This document shows, piece by piece, positions 31,599 through 53,752 of a stretch of 64,000 bases of DNA (positions within the stretch are counted from its first letter, which is position 1; every line of letters begins with the position of its first letter). A program made the translations under genes and the position numbers. The stretch is taken from positions 62,001 to 126,000 of the forward strand of contig WGMX01000014.1 of NCBI GenBank assembly GCA_016124855.1, given 5' to 3'. The notes under the pieces were generated by a model, which saw only the letters and a program-made list of their open reading frames with translations, was not told the origin of the DNA and made no database searches. This DNA is from Anaerolineaceae bacterium (GTDB lineage Bacteria > Chloroflexota > Anaerolineae > Aggregatilineales > Phototrophicaceae).

Positions 31599-32861
31599 TC
31601 AACCACCCATTCTGATCGCGCCAGCTTCGACTTTGGGCAGCGTAAACACGAATGTTGTCCCTTTATCAGGCTGGCTTTCAACGCGGATGGTTCCTCCATG
31701 AGCTTCCACAAATCCACGCACAATTGCGAGTCCCAATCCGGTTCCTCTTCGACCGTCACTCGTTTGTGCACGTGATTGTTCACCGCGATAAAAACTCTTA
31801 AATACATTTGGCAAATCAGCTTCAGGGATATAAGATCCGCTGTTGTGAATACTAATTTCGGCCTGCTGATTTTTTCCTCGTGCGTTCAGGCTGACTTCCC
31901 CACCGCTCGGCGTATATTCAAGTGCATTGTCGATCAAATTATATAGAATCCGCTGCACCTTATCCGGCGCCACGTATAACATATCGACCGTTGGATCAAC
32001 GTGCGCCGAAAGCTTCACCGAATGCGCTTTTGCCCTTGCATTCATATTACTTAACGTATCGGATACCAAGTCATGCAGCGAAGTGGTCTGTCGCCGCAGT
32101 GGAATATGTCCCGTATCCAATTGAGCCAAATCGAAAAGGTCATTAATCAACTGCCCCATATGGGTAATTTCATTCTGCATATTCTGTTGATAACGCTTCA
32201 CTGTGTCAGGATCACTTACAACACCATCCATCATCGCTTCGTTCATCGCACGAATCGCGGCTAGAGGTGTGCGCAAATCGTGGGATGCCCATGCAATCAA
32301 ATCACGTCGCATTTGTTCAACCTGCCGCTTTTGTTCCTCAACTTCCTCCAGATCCGTTGCCATCTTATTAAACATCATAGCCAGTTCGCTCAAATCATCA
32401 TTACCGACAACTGGCAACCGAACTTTCCAGTCCGAACGTGCCAATGCCTGAACACCTTTTGACAATTCAGATATTCGCTCACGTAATGTCCGCGCGATAA
32501 AAAAGGTTGAAACCGCAGCGATGACACCTGCAAATATGAGCAGCCCTGTCGTCAAAACCAGATCATGCTCTTTAATGAACATAAGCCGCGCTGTGATCCA
32601 GACATTAATGAAAATCAAAACGACAGTCAATACGATGATGGCAAATAGCGCGCCTCGTAAACTCAGAAAACGCTGGAGCATACGTTGTTGATACAGTAGA
32701 TAGGTCAGGCCAACGGTTACTAATCCGCTGCTGCCCATATAGAAAAACAGGTTTTGAACGTCTTCTGCGGGAGGGTTTAGTGCGGGAACAATAACTAGCA
32801 TAGCCAGCAAAAAAGCGACTAGTACCGCAACCACAAGTTGAATAAATAATGGAAGTTTCAT
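31599..32861 (-). CDS. Membrane sensor histidine kinase with HAMP domain
   Basis: The 420-residue product has several hydrophobic segments in its N-terminus (about 5-30, 37-60, 70-92, 99-122), then a HAMP-like linker (ISELSKGVQALARSDW). HisKA follows with WASHDLRTPLAAI (phospho-accepting His), and HATPase with NALEYTPSGGEV and GTGLGLAIVRGFVEAHGG. It phosphorylates the OmpR-type regulator encoded upstream; the genes overlap by ATGA. The sensing region is almost all membrane with short loops, so it probably senses a membrane state or works with another protein. Ligand not identifiable. Confidence 0.92.
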   Translation of the reverse strand: MKLPLFIQLVVAVLVAFLLAMLVIVPALNPPAEDVQNLFFYMGSSGLVTVGLTYLLYQQRMLQRFLSLRGALFAIIVLTVVLIFINVWITARLMFIKEHDLVLTTGLLIFAGVIAAVSTFFIARTLRERISELSKGVQALARSDWKVRLPVVGNDDLSELAMMFNKMATDLEEVEEQKRQVEQMRRDLIAWASHDLRTPLAAIRAMNEAMMDGVVSDPDTVKRYQQNMQNEITHMGQLINDLFDLAQLDTGHIPLRRQTTSLHDLVSDTLSNMNARAKAHSVKLSAHVDPTVDMLYVAPDKVQRILYNLIDNALEYTPSGGEVSLNARGKNQQAEISIHNSGSYIPEADLPNVFKSFYRGEQSRAQTSDGRRGTGLGLAIVRGFVEAHGGTIRVESQPDKGTTFVFTLPKVEAGAIRMGG

Positions 32862-47182: not shown

Positions 47183-49294
47183 ATGGTCGCTATGGAATCA
47201 AGAACAATTGAACAGCTCAACAGTGAAAACATTGTTTTGCAAGAGAAAGTCGCTGAGCTTTCAGCTATAAATAAGATCGCCCACATACTTGGCACCTCAC
47301 TTGAATTCGAGGAATTTCTAGATCAGTTTATTGTTGCAATTCAAGACATAGTCAAATGCGACCACGTTTTGATATTGGTGCAAGATGATCAGGAGACCAT
47401 TCTCCAATATGGTGCGAGTAATTTTAAACTTCCGGGCGACCAACAAAGTAACCTCGAAGGCTTGCGTATTGGAACTTTCCAACCAGAGCCCGGCTCAATT
47501 GTCGATACATGGAGTAACGGAAACAGCGTCTGGGCCAAGCCTCAAACAAACGAGGACAACCTGTCGATTAAATGGCTGTCCACCTATCTAAAGACCGACT
47601 CGTTTTTTGGAACACCATTACGATCAGAAAACAATCTCATCGGCGCAATTATTATTGACAACAGCACCAGCGGAAAACCCATCGAAAAAGAGCATCAATA
47701 TTGGTTGGAAACTATTAGTCCAAGCGGGGCGATGGCGCTGCAAAACGCGCGTTTGCACCACAAAACGGTTCGAGAACTGGCTGACAGTATGCGTGAGATG
47801 TATATTTTGCGCCAGATTGACCGTGAACTCAGCGATACGATTAACATCAATCATGTCTTCGAAATGACACTCGATTGGGCACTTCGTTTCAGTAACGCAC
47901 AATCAACATCGTTAGCCTTATTCGACCAGGAATCCAACACATTACATTTCTTATTTGAATATGGCTACGACGTTCCCCAAGAACAACTCGATATTATTCG
48001 GCAAGAGTACGGCTCAGGCATTACCGCACGAGTTGCAAATTCAGGTTACGCCGAGGTTGTACCCGATGTCAGCATGGATCCCGATTTTGTGCGGATGGCA
48101 ACCAATACCCGTTCACAAATGGCTGTTCCAGTTATGCGTGAAGACCGCGTTGTAGCCGTTATCACGCTTGATAGCAAAAAACTCAACGGATTCACGGATG
48201 CACACCTCGATTTTGTACAAAAATTAGCAACCCGGGCAGGTGTTGCCATTGACAATGCCCGTCTATACGAAGAAGCCATCCGTGAGCGCGAAAAACTCTC
48301 CCATATTCTCAATAACACAGCAGATATGGTGATGGTGATTGGCAATGACGAGCGCATCATCTTGATTAACCAGGCAGCCTTAAACGCCATGCAGCTCTAC
48401 ACCAATCAAGACTATACACGACGGCTGGCGAGCGAAACCTTTGAGCACACCGCACTTTGGGCAACATTCCAACGCGCGAAGAACAGCGGCGAAAACATCA
48501 TCGAAGAAGTGATGATGCCCAACGAGCGGATTTTCCACGCAAACTTGCGCCGGTTTGAAGGTATCGGCTGGATTGTAGTTATGCATGATGTCACCCCTTA
48601 CAAGGAAATGGACAAACTAAAAGGCGAACTGATTGCGACCGTTTCCCATGATCTCAAGCAGCCATTGAGTGTGATGAACGGCTACATTGAGCTGATGATT
48701 ATGCAGCAGAGTGTGACCCAACAGGGCTTGAACTCGGTGCACATGATCCGCAAGGCCATGCAAAACATGCGCCAATTGATTGATGATTTGCTCGACCTCG
48801 CCAAAATCGAGTCGGGAATTAAACTCAATTTGGAAGCTGTTCAGATTGAACAGATCATTCAAGACTGCATCGAGCAAGTGAAGCCAGCCGCCCAAAATAA
48901 AGCCATCACGGTTATAAACAATATTACCGAAACTCTTCCAGCGATCATGGCTGATCGTTCTCGCATGAGGCAGATTCTCATCAACTTGATTGGCAACGGT
49001 GTGAAGTACACAGGTACTGAAGGCTGGGTGAAAATTGGGTCTGAAATTAAGTCAAACACTCTCCGAATTGCGATCCAAGATAACGGTATGGGTATCAGCC
49101 CCGAAGATCAAATCCATGTTTTCGAGCGTTTTTATCGGGTACGACGACCGGAAACCGATAATATTGAAGGAACCGGTTTGGGCTTAGCTATTGTTAAGAG
49201 CTTGGTTGAGGCACATGGCGGGCAAATCACGGTCGAGAGCAAGTTGGGTGAAGGCACAACTTTCTATCTCGCACTACCTATCGCTCAATCTTAA
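47183..49294 (+). CDS. GAF-GAF-PAS sensor histidine kinase
   Basis: The 703-residue product has a coiled coil start, GAF 1 (about 30-195), GAF 2 (about 215-365), a PAS domain (about 375-470 with NTADMVMVIGNDERIILIN), then HisKA with GELIATVSHDLKQPLSVMNGYIEL (phospho-accepting His in VSHDLKQ) and HATPase with LIGNGVKYTGTEG and GTGLGLAIVKSLVEAHGG. No membrane segment is present, so it senses a cytoplasmic signal. No response regulator is adjacent, so it is an orphan kinase. ATG 47183 or the second ATG at 47192 could be the start. A terminator follows 28 bases after the stop. Confidence 0.93.
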   Translation: MVAMESRTIEQLNSENIVLQEKVAELSAINKIAHILGTSLEFEEFLDQFIVAIQDIVKCDHVLILVQDDQETILQYGASNFKLPGDQQSNLEGLRIGTFQPEPGSIVDTWSNGNSVWAKPQTNEDNLSIKWLSTYLKTDSFFGTPLRSENNLIGAIIIDNSTSGKPIEKEHQYWLETISPSGAMALQNARLHHKTVRELADSMREMYILRQIDRELSDTININHVFEMTLDWALRFSNAQSTSLALFDQESNTLHFLFEYGYDVPQEQLDIIRQEYGSGITARVANSGYAEVVPDVSMDPDFVRMATNTRSQMAVPVMREDRVVAVITLDSKKLNGFTDAHLDFVQKLATRAGVAIDNARLYEEAIREREKLSHILNNTADMVMVIGNDERIILINQAALNAMQLYTNQDYTRRLASETFEHTALWATFQRAKNSGENIIEEVMMPNERIFHANLRRFEGIGWIVVMHDVTPYKEMDKLKGELIATVSHDLKQPLSVMNGYIELMIMQQSVTQQGLNSVHMIRKAMQNMRQLIDDLLDLAKIESGIKLNLEAVQIEQIIQDCIEQVKPAAQNKAITVINNITETLPAIMADRSRMRQILINLIGNGVKYTGTEGWVKIGSEIKSNTLRIAIQDNGMGISPEDQIHVFERFYRVRRPETDNIEGTGLGLAIVKSLVEAHGGQITVESKLGEGTTFYLALPIAQS

Positions 49295-49352: not shown

Positions 49353-49453
49353 ATTTTATTTGGGTTTAAAATAGTAATGAAAAGAAAACTATTCCAATGA
49401 AATGAGGAGTGAATCGCGGAATAAAAGTAAATTAGTTTGAAAGAGATTTATTG

Positions 49454-50818
49454 ATGGCATACCGAATTGGGTCGGGACAAGGTTTTTATGGAGATGATGT
49501 AACACGAGCGCTGCCGATGATTACGGGAGGTCACGTAGACATCGTGTGCTTCGAGGCGCTGAGTGAACTGACGCTGGCAATTTTACAAAAGAATAAGCTA
49601 GCTGATCCTAAACGCGGTTATACCTTTGATGTCAAAATCATCGCTGAGAAGATTTTGCCGGAGGCTTTCAAGCGCAAAATTCCGTTAATTACCAACGGCG
49701 GTGGTTTGAATCCGCTATCCGCCGCCGAGATGGTGCGCAAAACCGCAGCAAGTATCGGCCTAACTGGCCTCAAAATCGCGACCATAACAGGCGATAATGT
49801 GCTGACACGGCTAGATGCACTGCAAGCAGCAGGCGAATCGCTGATGAATATGGAAACAGGCGAAAAATTGGCAGATACGGAAAACCAGAATTTCATCACC
49901 GCCAATGTCTATTTGGGAGCCCAGCCGTTAGTCGAAGCACTCAAATCTGGCGCGGATATGGTGATTACCGGACGGGTGGCTGATCCTTGTTTATATTTGG
50001 CAGCGATGGTGGCACATTACGGCTGGGCGTGGGATGACTGGAACCGGCTTGCCAGCGGGATTGTTGCTGGACACCTCTTAGAATGTACAGGACAAGTGGT
50101 CGGCGGCAACAGCCTCGCACTTATTCATGATACCGACGCGTCAGCCCTACCCTATTTAGGTTACCCGATAGCCGAAGTCGAGGCCGATGGCAGTTTTGTG
50201 CTGACTAAAATACCCAACAGCGCGGGATGTGTATCGATCGAAACCGTCAAAGAACAACTGCTGTACGAAATCCACGATCCCGCCAATTACATCACACCGG
50301 ATGTGGTCGCTAACCTGACAACTCTCCACTTGGAAGATGTGGGACGTGACCGTGTGCGAGTAACCAACGTGACAGGTAAGCCGCGTACCTCAACTTATAA
50401 ACTCAATTTAGGACGCTTGGAAGGTTACAGCCGCGAGTTGATCTTTAACATCGGTTGGCCTGAAGCGTGGCTAAAAGTCAATCAACTGAAGGCCGCGCTC
50501 GACGAAATTTTCCGTCGCAACGAAGCGATTGAACGCTGGGAATACAGCTATTTGGGCGCGAACAGTTTATACGGTTCGCTGGCGAAACTCCCGCCCGATC
50601 CGATGGAAGTGATCGTACGAGTGATTTTCACCGCGCAAGACACCGACAAACTGAAACAAGTCGTCCGGCAAATCAATGCGATGGGCTTAAGCGGCCCCGC
50701 AGGCATGAGCGTCAGCGGCGCATCGGTCGGTGGCAATCCACATGTGATCCTCGGTTTGTGGCCGACGTTGGTGAGAAGAGACAAAATAAAAGCTGTAATC
50801 GGCTATGAAGAATGTTGA
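49454..50818 (+). CDS. AtuA-family protein (DUF1446), acyclic-terpene-utilisation-like
   Basis: The 454-residue product opens RIGSGQGFYGDDVTRALPMI and continues with GGHVDIVCFEALSELTLAIL, LITNGGGLNPLSAAEMVRK and MVITGRVADPCLYLAAM. This is the pattern of the AtuA/DUF1446 family, which in Pseudomonas accompanies citronellol/geraniol catabolism but occurs more widely with CoA-ester pathways. The family's small ferredoxin-like partner domain is not fused here but encoded separately at 51445. ATG 49454 is preferred to the TTG before it. The molecular reaction is not established for the family. Enoyl-CoA hydratase at 52617 supports a CoA-ester route. Confidence 0.85.
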   Translation: MAYRIGSGQGFYGDDVTRALPMITGGHVDIVCFEALSELTLAILQKNKLADPKRGYTFDVKIIAEKILPEAFKRKIPLITNGGGLNPLSAAEMVRKTAASIGLTGLKIATITGDNVLTRLDALQAAGESLMNMETGEKLADTENQNFITANVYLGAQPLVEALKSGADMVITGRVADPCLYLAAMVAHYGWAWDDWNRLASGIVAGHLLECTGQVVGGNSLALIHDTDASALPYLGYPIAEVEADGSFVLTKIPNSAGCVSIETVKEQLLYEIHDPANYITPDVVANLTTLHLEDVGRDRVRVTNVTGKPRTSTYKLNLGRLEGYSRELIFNIGWPEAWLKVNQLKAALDEIFRRNEAIERWEYSYLGANSLYGSLAKLPPDPMEVIVRVIFTAQDTDKLKQVVRQINAMGLSGPAGMSVSGASVGGNPHVILGLWPTLVRRDKIKAVIGYEEC

Positions 50819-50882: not shown

Positions 50883-51428
50883 GTGGAATCGAAAAGCAAA
50901 TTGCCCCATAACTTCATTATCATCAATCCAAAGAATTATGGGTTCATTGATGGAAGCAATAGGAAGTTAGGTGGCGCTAGCACTGCACGATATCTAGTCA
51001 AGTTCATAGCCTTGTTCTATTTTACACTGGCTTTACCAATCGCAGTTTTAATAGCCCTTGTATTTTCGCTTTTGGGACAGGGTGCATTCTTAGATTTTCT
51101 TTTGTTTGAAGCCATTTTCATGATCTTGATTAGTTGTTATATGGCATATATGGGTTATAAAACACGACATACCTTAGAGACTAAAGGAGAAGTTTTGTCA
51201 GGGGAGGTTACCGGATATGACAGTCGCCAAAGTCTCAGTATCTCAGGTTACAAGACCGTACCTCGACTGAAATATGGGTTCATTTCTCCTTCGGGCGTAA
51301 GTTTATCCGGTAGCACTTTGATCCCAGCAAAATACAAATCGCATTTACCTGATGGACAAGAATTGCCAGCGGTTGGTACGGCAGTTGCCATTTTATATGC
51401 GGACGATAAGAAACACACGATTTTATGA
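50883..51428 (+). CDS. DUF3592-like membrane protein inserted in the AtuA cluster
   Basis: The 181-residue frame starts with GTG and has a hydrophilic N-terminus (about 1-40), two hydrophobic helices (about 41-65, 68-92) and a soluble C-terminal part with GEVLSGEVTGYDSRQSLSI, PRLKYGFISPSG and AVGTAVAILY. That C-terminal shape resembles DUF3592 proteins. The base composition is more AT-rich than the flanking AtuA genes. It sits between the large and small AtuA genes, 64 bases after the first and 16 before the second. A role in that pathway is not evident; it looks inserted. Confidence 0.6.
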   Translation: MESKSKLPHNFIIINPKNYGFIDGSNRKLGGASTARYLVKFIALFYFTLALPIAVLIALVFSLLGQGAFLDFLLFEAIFMILISCYMAYMGYKTRHTLETKGEVLSGEVTGYDSRQSLSISGYKTVPRLKYGFISPSGVSLSGSTLIPAKYKSHLPDGQELPAVGTAVAILYADDKKHTIL

Positions 51429-51444
51429 ATTAGGTGAATTTATC

Positions 51445-51756
51445 ATGACCAAGCGACTCTACGACTTAGCCTACGGACGTTCCGGCGATAAAGGCAATAT
51501 CGCCAATATCAGCGTGATTGCCCGTAACAGTGAGGCTTACACTGAAATTAAGTCTAAACTGACCGCCGAACGAGTCAAAGCCCATCTCGGTGATTTGGTA
51601 AAAGGCGACGTTATCCGCTATGAAGTCGATAACATCGAAGCATTGAACTTCGTGTGCTATCAAGCATTAGATGGTGGGGCGACGCGCTCTCTCCGAATTG
51701 ACCAATTGGGGAAATCGCTGGCTGGCGCGGTGCTTTATATCGAATGGGAAGAATAA
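51445..51756 (+). CDS. AtuA-associated small domain protein
   Basis: The 103-residue product begins MTKRLYDLAYGRSGDKGNIA and ends with LGKSLAGAVLYIEWEE, a segment found at the C-terminus of fused AtuA proteins or as a separate partner. The RSGDKGN motif is well conserved in that family. ATG 51445 follows AGGTGA; the frame is open further upstream inside the DUF3592-like gene but that extension has no homologous look. It overlaps the start of the next gene by 13 bases. It probably forms a complex with the AtuA protein at 49454. Confidence 0.82.
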   Translation: MTKRLYDLAYGRSGDKGNIANISVIARNSEAYTEIKSKLTAERVKAHLGDLVKGDVIRYEVDNIEALNFVCYQALDGGATRSLRIDQLGKSLAGAVLYIEWEE

Positions 51757-52598
51757 CAGTGAGAGCGTTTGAACGCATTAAGATTGATCCTAACGTCGCA
51801 AACGGCTTGCCTTGTATTCGCGACACGAGCATTACGGTGAGCGAGGTCGTGAAAGCCATTCAAGGTGGGAAATCTGTTAATGAAGTAATCGATTCATATG
51901 AAGGTTTAACTATAGATGATGTAGTCGAAGCACAACGATTTGCTATTGGAAATCTAACTGAAAGCATCGGAATGGCACGGTTTGATACAGCAGGTTACTT
52001 GTCATATGTGATTGGGTTTGGAGAAATTGCATCAACCAATCCTGATATTTTGGACAAAGACCGATTGATTAAGCTTTCTGGTCAAAGTGCCACTAACGCA
52101 AAACAAACCATAAGTTTGCTTTTGTCATTGCAGCATTGGTCACGCTTTGCATTTATTAGTGACGGTCTACATGGTGGCGAAAAAGTAACTTTTGCCGATT
52201 TCATATCTAGGATAAATGATGAGCTAAAATCAAATGATTGTGAAATACATACTGAATTCATTAATAGTGATGAAATTCCCGACTTAAATATTGATTTCTA
52301 TTTTGTCATGACTACCGTCGGACTCATTAACGAAAATATTATCTTCAATCCGGGCAAGAAAATTATCTTACGGACTCAATTCAACCAGAATAAATGGTTA
52401 TTAGATGTCATGCGCGAGTGTGTCAACGATATAAAAAATGAGGATGACTTTGTTCGTGTGACTAATTATCCAAACAGCTTATCTATAGCCAAGCACATTT
52501 ACCACATCTATAACTGTAATTTTTCGATCAAATTCAGTGGCAATTGGATAATTTTTCAAGTAGAGTTGCCACTTTGGAAAGAGGAAGCAAAATCCTAA
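51744..52598 (+). CDS. DUF433 domain fused to a degenerate histidine-kinase-like ATPase region
   Basis: The 284-residue product has an N-terminal DUF433 unit (about 10-62: RIKIDPNVANGLPCIRDTSI, TVSEVVKAIQGG, IDDVVEAQRFA), a small HTH-type domain known from VapB-like antitoxins. After a linker come helices (LSGQSATNAKQTISLLLSLQ) like a kinase dimerisation region, then SDEIPDLNIDFYFVMTTVGL, INENIIFNPGKKIILRTQFN and finally SLSIAKHIYHIYNCNFSIKF with IIFQVELPLW. This last part aligns in order with the N-box, GLGLAIVK and TTF.F.LPL elements of HATPase domains, but the DxGxG and GLGL glycines are missing and no H-box is seen. ATG 51744 overlaps the previous gene; GTG 51759 with GGAAG upstream is an alternative. 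AT-rich. Function unknown. Confidence 0.65.
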   Translation: MGRITVRAFERIKIDPNVANGLPCIRDTSITVSEVVKAIQGGKSVNEVIDSYEGLTIDDVVEAQRFAIGNLTESIGMARFDTAGYLSYVIGFGEIASTNPDILDKDRLIKLSGQSATNAKQTISLLLSLQHWSRFAFISDGLHGGEKVTFADFISRINDELKSNDCEIHTEFINSDEIPDLNIDFYFVMTTVGLINENIIFNPGKKIILRTQFNQNKWLLDVMRECVNDIKNEDDFVRVTNYPNSLSIAKHIYHIYNCNFSIKFSGNWIIFQVELPLWKEEAKS

Positions 52599-52616: not shown

Positions 52617-53402
52617 ATGGAAATTGGCATGAACTTTGAAACCCTTCTAGTCACAACCTCCCATTCCTTCGCCTATATCACTTTAAATCGTCCCGCTGTA
52701 AAGAACGCGATGAACAACCAGATGGTGTTGGACATCATCGCAGCGTTCGAAGGTTTGAAAGATAATCGTGAAGTGCGCGCCATTATCCTCAGTGGCGCGG
52801 AAGGTACGTTCTGTGCGGGCGGTGATCTCAAAGACATGCAAGCACTTCAGAGCGGCGCAACCGATAACTTTTCCGGCACACTCGATAAAATGCTGCGAAC
52901 CATCAATGAAGCGCCACAGGTGGTCATTGCCAAAGTGGAAGGCGCGGCGATGGGCGGCGGATTTGGCATTGTGTGCGTGTCAGATATTGCAATTGCCAGC
53001 ACCGAAGCCAAAATGGGCTTACCCGAAGTGCGCTTGGGAATTGTTCCGGCACTAATATCGCCTTATGTCATCGCGCGTGTGGGCTTAACACGAGCGCGGG
53101 AACTGATGCTCACCGGACGGCGATTCGACGGATTGACTGCCTGTGATTATGGCATCGTCCATGAGACAGTTGTACCAGAAGAACTTGAACAGCGGCTCAA
53201 TGTGATTTTGGACGAGATTAAGCTCTGTAGTCCTCATGCCCTTGCCGCCTGCAAGCAGTTAATCTTCGCTGTAAAAGATAAGTCAACGGCCTCAACGGTT
53301 GATTATCGTAGCAACTTGTTAAGCCAACTCCGGCAGAGCGAAGACGGTCAGGAAGGAATGAAAGCCTTCTTGGAAAAACGACCGGCGAATTGGACAAAGT
53401 AA
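52617..53402 (+). CDS. Enoyl-CoA hydratase/isomerase family protein
   Basis: The 261-residue product has the crotonase fold: AYITLNRPAVKNAMNNQMV, ILSGAEGTFCAGGDLKDM (oxyanion-hole region), AAMGGGFGIVCVSDIAIAS and MGLPEVRLGIVPALISPYVI (position of a catalytic Glu). It adds water across a 2-enoyl-CoA or isomerises it. Its place after two AtuA-type genes suggests isohexenylglutaconyl-CoA hydratase (AtuE-like) or a related hydratase, which is an inference from neighbours. ATG 52617 has AGGAAA upstream; ATG 52629 is a second possibility. No carboxylase genes are in view. Confidence 0.9.
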   Translation: MEIGMNFETLLVTTSHSFAYITLNRPAVKNAMNNQMVLDIIAAFEGLKDNREVRAIILSGAEGTFCAGGDLKDMQALQSGATDNFSGTLDKMLRTINEAPQVVIAKVEGAAMGGGFGIVCVSDIAIASTEAKMGLPEVRLGIVPALISPYVIARVGLTRARELMLTGRRFDGLTACDYGIVHETVVPEELEQRLNVILDEIKLCSPHALAACKQLIFAVKDKSTASTVDYRSNLLSQLRQSEDGQEGMKAFLEKRPANWTK

Positions 53403-53752
53403 AATCCTGAGTATCGAGTCCTGTTACTTCGAAAAGGCCGACACATTTACAATAAGGCGAAGTGAGAGCGAAATACTTCATTTGAGTCGTACACATTCGA
53501 GAGTTTGTTTCGTTTCTTTGCGGTGATTACAAAATAATAACATTGCATTAGAAATAACGATTATAACTTGAAAAGAACGCCCGTTCTGCGTATGATGTCT
53601 TACGGGGAAGCCAAATTCAAAACTATCTTAACCACTAATAGGGGTCAAGAAGCTCTCCAATCTTGGCTGTCGCTGTAACATCTCCGCAATCATCTTAGTC
53701 TAATCTCACGTAGTACTCTTATTTCCAAACTCCAACGTATCGGGAGGCAATA
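53403..53752. other. 350-bp intergenic region upstream of the peptide transporter
   Basis: It holds the promoter at 53568-53596 with an embedded palindrome, described separately. No reading frame with protein-like content and no hairpin terminator for the preceding enoyl-CoA hydratase gene were found. CGGGAGG ends 5 bases before the binding-protein ATG at 53753. Confidence 0.5.
53568..53596 (+). promoter_or_regulatory. Promoter with a palindrome in its spacer, GAAC-N4-GTTC core
   Basis: TTGAAA (53568-53573) and TATGAT (53591-53596) are 17 bases apart, a good sigma-70-type promoter. The spacer contains the 14-bp palindrome AGAACGCCCGTTCT (53574-53587), whose core GAAC-N4-GTTC matches the LexA (SOS) box of Gram-positive bacteria. 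A repressor bound there would block RNA polymerase. It lies 157 bases upstream of the peptide-binding protein gene. Whether LexA or another regulator binds is not known. Confidence 0.6.

Follow-up and report, generated by a model that had tools for sequence, protein, structure and literature searches.

Histidine-kinase cores that have been stripped of catalysis and kept for binding are described, in the excerpts cited here, for DivL (PMC4211667), RetS (PMC5992135), and ChpT (PMC3433190). DUF433, in turn, is a PIN-associated antitoxin family whose members are winged-helix proteins (PMC2701414, in part), and the DUF433/COG2442 antitoxin VapB10 of Synechocystis binds and activates its own promoter (PMC3834315, in part). 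The window analyzed here, a stretch of 64,000 nucleotides of Anaerolineaceae bacterium contig WGMX01000014.1, encodes a protein with the same N-terminal domain as VapB10 and 2GA1, followed by what is predicted to be a degenerate histidine-kinase core. No title on a DUF433-kinase fusion was found in the literature searched, for the most part journals outside subscription; PMC10853773 was considered as a DUF433 paper and set aside, since it matched only through the longer name DUF4338. The gene and its parts are as follows, with positions in the window and residue numbers, here and throughout, in the 284-aa reading.

51759..52598, + strand: whole gene from its likelier start, GTG (279 aa)
51777..51944, + strand: DUF433 (PF04255), residues 12 to 67 (Pfam, E = 6.5e-15)
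51945..52163, + strand: DHp-like helical hairpin, residues about 68 to 140, with predicted helices at 57 to 98 and 105 to 133 (model, alignment, and sub-threshold HisKA in relatives)
51981..51983, + strand: codon of Phe80, which takes the position of the phospho-acceptor His (alignment)
52170..52583, + strand: putative CA (HATPase-like) domain without ATP motifs, residues about 143 to 280 (model, fold match, and alignment)

The ORF first reported, from an ATG at 51744 to 52598 on the + strand (284 aa), is present. GTG 51759 is the likelier start because the N termini of relatives begin at the same alignment point, and it sits 2 bp past the stop of the preceding AtuA-ferredoxin-like gene. The PF04255 match reached 55.1 bits against a Pfam cut-off of 23.6, and phmmer identified 2GA1 as a PDB relative of the domain (E = 0.0045). 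Besides DUF433, Pfam found nothing in the 284-aa protein at E ≤ 1, NCBIfam gave one chance-level match (E = 0.14), and PADLOC gave no match. Since Pfam sees DUF433 only and NCBIfam nothing above chance, kinase remnants of this kind go uncounted.

A search for the same architecture recovered it from 9 of the 154 genomes of the order, as seven full-length members (the window, G012 [L046], G001 [L047], G007 [L048], G021 [L050], G122 [L083], and G076 [L084]), one cut by a contig end (G038 [L020]), and one short form of 133 aa (G055 [L016]). The G055 form consists of DUF433 and the hairpin only, with the CA domain gone; the protein stops after the hairpin, and the hydratase-like frame begins four codons on. 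Samples of 396 genomes of the class (E ≤ 1e-15) and 400 of the phylum (E ≤ 1e-22) yielded no additional members, the former returning those already known and the latter the window only. Up to 16 candidates per genome were scored in the order, 6 in the class and phylum, and 10 in the solo-core search described below, and all genome counts are lower bounds. Histidine pseudokinases are already known; the DUF433-joined form has so far turned up in few genomes, all of one order.

The original prediction had recognized by eye a kinase-like order of elements behind the DUF433 unit, and this order proved to be real. In an alignment with true kinases, 'NSLSIAKHIYHIY' pairs with 'GLGLSIAKHIVEA', and the strand 'WIIFQVELPLW' pairs with 'STFSFTLPLP'. 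A profile built from the C-terminal halves of six relatives, with the window protein excluded, found the window C-terminal half at E = 4.8e-7, compared to E = 0.18 for the best of 2,000 shuffles. The same profile matched three real kinases at E = 1.1e-16, 9.9e-14, and 1.3e-8. When it was run against the 44 window ORFs of at least 100 aa, the DUF433-kinase ORF scored E = 3.1e-9, the histidine kinase at 47183-49294 scored E = 3.8e-9, and a kinase-like ORF at 31599-32861, in which an H-box is visible, scored E = 1.4e-5; no other ORF scored better than E = 1.1. The seven full-length members together gave a profile with 22 matches among PDB sequences at E ≤ 0.01, namely 2GA1 (DUF433) and 21 named histidine kinases, sensor proteins, or bacteriophytochromes. 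Among the relatives themselves, Pfam detected HisKA in G007 (E = 7.6e-6), G012 (1.1e-4), G001 (4.4e-4), G122 (1.1e-3), and G021 (0.19) and HATPase_c in G001 (E = 0.0022), all below the curated cut-offs, and no kinase match in G076, G055, or G038. A profile of the three real kinases alone misses the window protein (E = 18); given this value and the Pfam result of DUF433 only, the kinase link rests on intermediates and fold. From sequence and model together, residues about 66 to 281 are predicted to be a degenerate histidine-kinase core, made up of a DHp hairpin and a CA domain.

The fold prediction agrees with this assignment. The model of the window protein has low confidence (mean pLDDT, 56.7; pTM, 0.44; four sequences) and shows, after DUF433, two long helices followed by the CA order helix-strand-helix-strand-strand-helix-strand-strand. 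This modeled fold resembles those of HK853, ZraS, and the pseudokinase DivL; HK853 was the best Foldseek match (7.1e-9), with DivL at 5.0e-8; VIA-align gave Z scores of 12.4 to 14.2 among the best 50 matches listed and an rmsd of 3.1 over 138 residues to the CA domain of ThkA. The model of the relative in G007 is better (pLDDT, 71.6) and has fold matches of the same kind (HK853, 6.6e-10; DivL, 7.4e-10; Z scores up to 15.4). Neither ChpT nor Spo0B was named among the fold matches listed; other kinases fill the lists, and the omission proves nothing. The claim that a DUF433 domain is joined to a histidine-kinase fold minus its glycine motifs is thus upheld by a predicted C-terminal fold that, even at the pLDDT of the window model, is a DHp-CA core and not an unrelated one, and the sequences of the relatives agree. 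Histidine-kinase ancestry and fold can be assigned to the DHp-CA core on these two lines of evidence.

What the core has lost is its catalytic equipment. Alignment of the seven full-length members with three real kinases showed that no member has its N-box, G1, or G2 motif complete; the ATP-lid stretch, counted between the G1 Asp and the G2 box, spans 17 to 22 residues in the members, versus 32 to 34 in those kinases. Stray motif letters occur in the alignment: the window protein has an Asn in an N-box column, G076 has G1-column Asp and Gly residues, and G001, G007, and G012 have one Gly within the G2 columns. The sequences are so divergent that residues in the CA half cannot be paired with certainty. 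The order of elements is retained among members at 20 to 27% identity. By sequence and model, the window protein is a predicted pseudokinase, that is, a kinase core with a degenerate CA domain, and a non-hydrolytic sensor role for the putative sensor fold is plausible. The phospho-acceptor His is kept in 5 of the 9 members (G012, G001, G007, G021, and G122), which might be taken, together with the two-domain shape of ChpT, a protein that neither autophosphorylates nor binds ATP (PMC3433190, in part), to indicate a Spo0B/ChpT-like histidine phosphotransferase. We consider this extremely unlikely, because that position is Phe80 in the window protein, Thr in G055, Arg in G038, and Tyr in G076.

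Related degenerate cores of about 240 to 330 aa that stand alone were found in the same class (L086:2851-3648, L100:3191-3910, and L101:2860-3849), with 96, 70, and 81 bits, respectively, to the family profile. A DUF433 match was present in 0 of the 3, the acceptor His is kept in one and replaced by Asn in the other two, and no receiver gene was noticed by eye beside them. A profile of these three solo cores misses the window C-terminal half (E = 0.15; best shuffle, 0.18). A profile search of 298 class genomes (E ≤ 1e-22) gave ten matches in nine genomes, and since these are long frames of 899 to 2,531 aa whose cores have intact H-boxes, the search is no measure of how frequent the solo form is. 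Trees of the two halves bear on how the fusion arose. In the DUF433-half tree, which had 63 columns only and in which the window copy was entered twice (as L005), 8 of the 9 fused members group with one stand-alone DUF433 (SH-aLRT 88, drawn open). In the kinase-half tree, where placement is unsure owing to long branches, the fused group needs two changes, and the window protein falls with G122 and G021 (99/100), separate from G012, G001, and G007, which share its gene cluster. These sequences neither establish nor rule out that the fusion arose once. A further DUF433 protein of about 220 aa, in a reverse-strand frame at L036:1468-2130, has C-terminal helix-hairpin-helix-like repeats by eye; the kinase core may not be the only kind of fusion partner that DUF433 has in the order.

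The gene lies in a tight co-directional run, with gaps of 2 bp and 18 bp to its flanking genes, within the following neighborhood.

47183-49294, + strand: complete kinase of 703 aa, GAF-GAF-PAS-HisKA-HATPase (Pfam), ending 156 bp before AtuA
49451..50818, + strand: AtuA (PF07287; Pfam, E = 6.9e-130)
50883-51428, + strand: 181-aa protein between AtuA and AtuA-ferredoxin, 40% GC, with no Pfam match above cut-off
51448..51756, + strand: AtuA ferredoxin-like (PF23544), ending 2 bp ahead of the GTG start (Pfam, E = 1.2e-30, obtained with the longer ORF 51352-51756)
52617..53402, + strand: enoyl-CoA hydratase/isomerase (PF00378), 18 bp downstream (Pfam, E = 5e-58)

In five genomes (the window, G001, G007, G012, and G055), the gene is found between AtuA-ferredoxin and a hydratase-like gene, with further genes interposed in the G001 and G055 clusters. 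AtuA-ferredoxin occurs in 36 of the 98 genomes of the family; 30 of these 36 loci were obtained, with 1,500 bases per side and some clipped by contig ends, and the DUF433 gene is present at just 5 of the 30 and is thus an optional insert. The slots flanking AtuA-ferredoxin are filled by unrelated ORFs that differ between genomes, which makes this a variable insertion site within a cluster that is otherwise conserved. A second context, near a class-III aminotransferase and the RNA 2'-phosphotransferase KptA, was seen in G021 (L050:945-5268) and G122 (L083:5123-8905). A fixed link of the DUF433-kinase gene to the AtuA pathway is not shown. Cluster genes of the relatives were named by eye, except AtuA-ferredoxin and ten neighbors scanned by Pfam. 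By eye as well, a biotin-carboxylase-like gene follows the hydratase in G055, G012, G001, and G007 (L045, L046, L047, and L048), and in the window the hydratase is followed by a 350-bp gap (53403-53752) and then a substrate-binding-protein-like gene. The two 7-bp inverted repeats noted upstream of AtuA are candidates no better than chance, and promoter-like hits (8, versus a shuffle mean of 13.3) and terminator-like hits (5 versus 7.3) were below chance.

This neighborhood did not support the suggestion in the original prediction of a toxin-antitoxin-like component. Pfam found no PIN toxin gene among five window neighbors (the kinase, AtuA, the 181-aa protein, AtuA-ferredoxin, and the hydratase) or ten neighbors of relatives. 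It is very unlikely that the protein serves as the antitoxin in a pair of the DUF433-PIN type and has a tail derived from a kinase, even though the domain belongs to a family partly documented as PIN-associated antitoxins (PMC2701414) and a PIN-like ORF was noted by eye about 4.5 kb upstream in G055 (L045:1363-1845); that ORF is preceded by a small gene of its own.

The complete kinase gene that ends just ahead of AtuA in the window is relevant to another explanation, in which the dead core, like RetS or DivL, binds and tunes a live histidine kinase or response regulator and DUF433 positions it or adds a partner. There are precedents in the cited excerpts: RetS, whose degenerate HATPase has no G-boxes, acts on GacS (PMC5992135), and DivL, which is among the best fold matches, has no kinase activity yet binds DivK~P (PMC4211667). 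However, no such kinase was seen by eye before AtuA in G001 or G055, where an acyl-CoA-dehydrogenase-like gene is found instead; no receiver gene adjoins the DUF433-kinase gene among the neighbors scanned; and the DHp face does not show conservation as a single block. On balance, we consider a partner-tuning pseudokinase unlikely.

It is also possible that the gene is a former DUF433-kinase fusion in slow decay, losing its function while its fold has merely not yet been erased. The gene is AT-rich (37% GC, versus 49 to 51% for AtuA, AtuA-ferredoxin, and the hydratase) and its branch is very long (8.9 changes per column), and decay is for these reasons a live rival; the loss of the CA domain in G055 and the optional presence of the gene would also fit. 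Yet the frame is open across its 217 C-terminal codons at 36% GC, which none of 20,000 shuffles matched (a simple estimate gave 1.5e-7), and both the order of elements and the fold are kept at the divergence noted above. Decay therefore seems to us rather improbable.

The reading we prefer, and whose chances we judge to be about even, is that of a dimeric, non-enzymatic local regulator, in which the kinase core would have been turned into the portion of a one-component regulator that dimerizes and perhaps also senses. Two copies would dimerize through a DHp four-helix bundle, so that paired DUF433 heads could grip a DNA site, probably the promoter of their own cluster, and the dead CA domain would persist as a scaffold or as a surface on which a ligand or partner docks. 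We favor this regulator because of the architecture, the kinase ancestry and fold, the lost catalytic motifs, the gaps of 2 and 18 bp, and the shared AtuA-hydratase context, as well as the DUF433-hairpin form of G055 and, from the partial accounts cited at the outset, the winged-helix DUF433 antitoxins and the promoter binding of VapB10. The 133-aa G055 form suggests that DUF433 and the hairpin are the minimal unit. Counted against the same reading are the low confidence of the window model, the 5 of 30 AtuA loci, and the other context in G021 and G122. A more specific version, in which DUF433 reads DNA, the dead DHp-CA dimer aligns two copies, and the emptied ATP pocket binds a small molecule or protein, would pass a phosphate-free signal from CA to DHp to DNA; the pocket ligand could be, for example, an acyl-CoA intermediate from the AtuA cluster. 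We regard this version as unlikely. The evidence as a whole suggests that a former signaling enzyme now serves, without enzymatic activity, in local gene regulation. The family forms a graded series, from relatives with the His and a faint HisKA match through the fold-only window protein to the member without a CA domain. As such, it is a natural experiment on what kinase cores remain capable of when ATP is no longer used, and on whether DUF433 functions outside toxin-antitoxin pairs.

Compared with known systems, the window protein shares individual parts with each. DUF433 antitoxins are about 70 to 80 aa long and adjoin a PIN toxin gene (PMC2701414, in part), whereas in the window protein a kinase core follows the domain and no PIN gene was found among the neighbors scanned. 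DivL (the Caulobacter histidine pseudokinase, 4Q20) has, as predicted for the window core, a DHp-CA fold without kinase activity, and the acceptor position holds Tyr550 in DivL and Phe80 in the window protein; DivL differs in being described in the cited excerpt with PAS sensor domains in front (PMC4211667), in the place taken here by DUF433. RetS of Pseudomonas (6DK7/6DK8), a fold and profile match to the window family, likewise has a degenerate HATPase without G-boxes but, per the part of the report cited, keeps its H-box and has REC domains (PMC5992135); the window protein lacks the His. ChpT and Spo0B share with the window protein the shape of a DHp-like hairpin plus an ATPase-like domain, which in their case binds no ATP, but transfer phosphate via a His that the window protein does not have (PMC3433190, in part). 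The solo cores L086, L100, and L101 are related kinase cores but gave no DUF433 match. What sets the window protein apart from DivL, RetS, and ChpT is the direct fusion of its core to an antitoxin-type domain that probably binds DNA.
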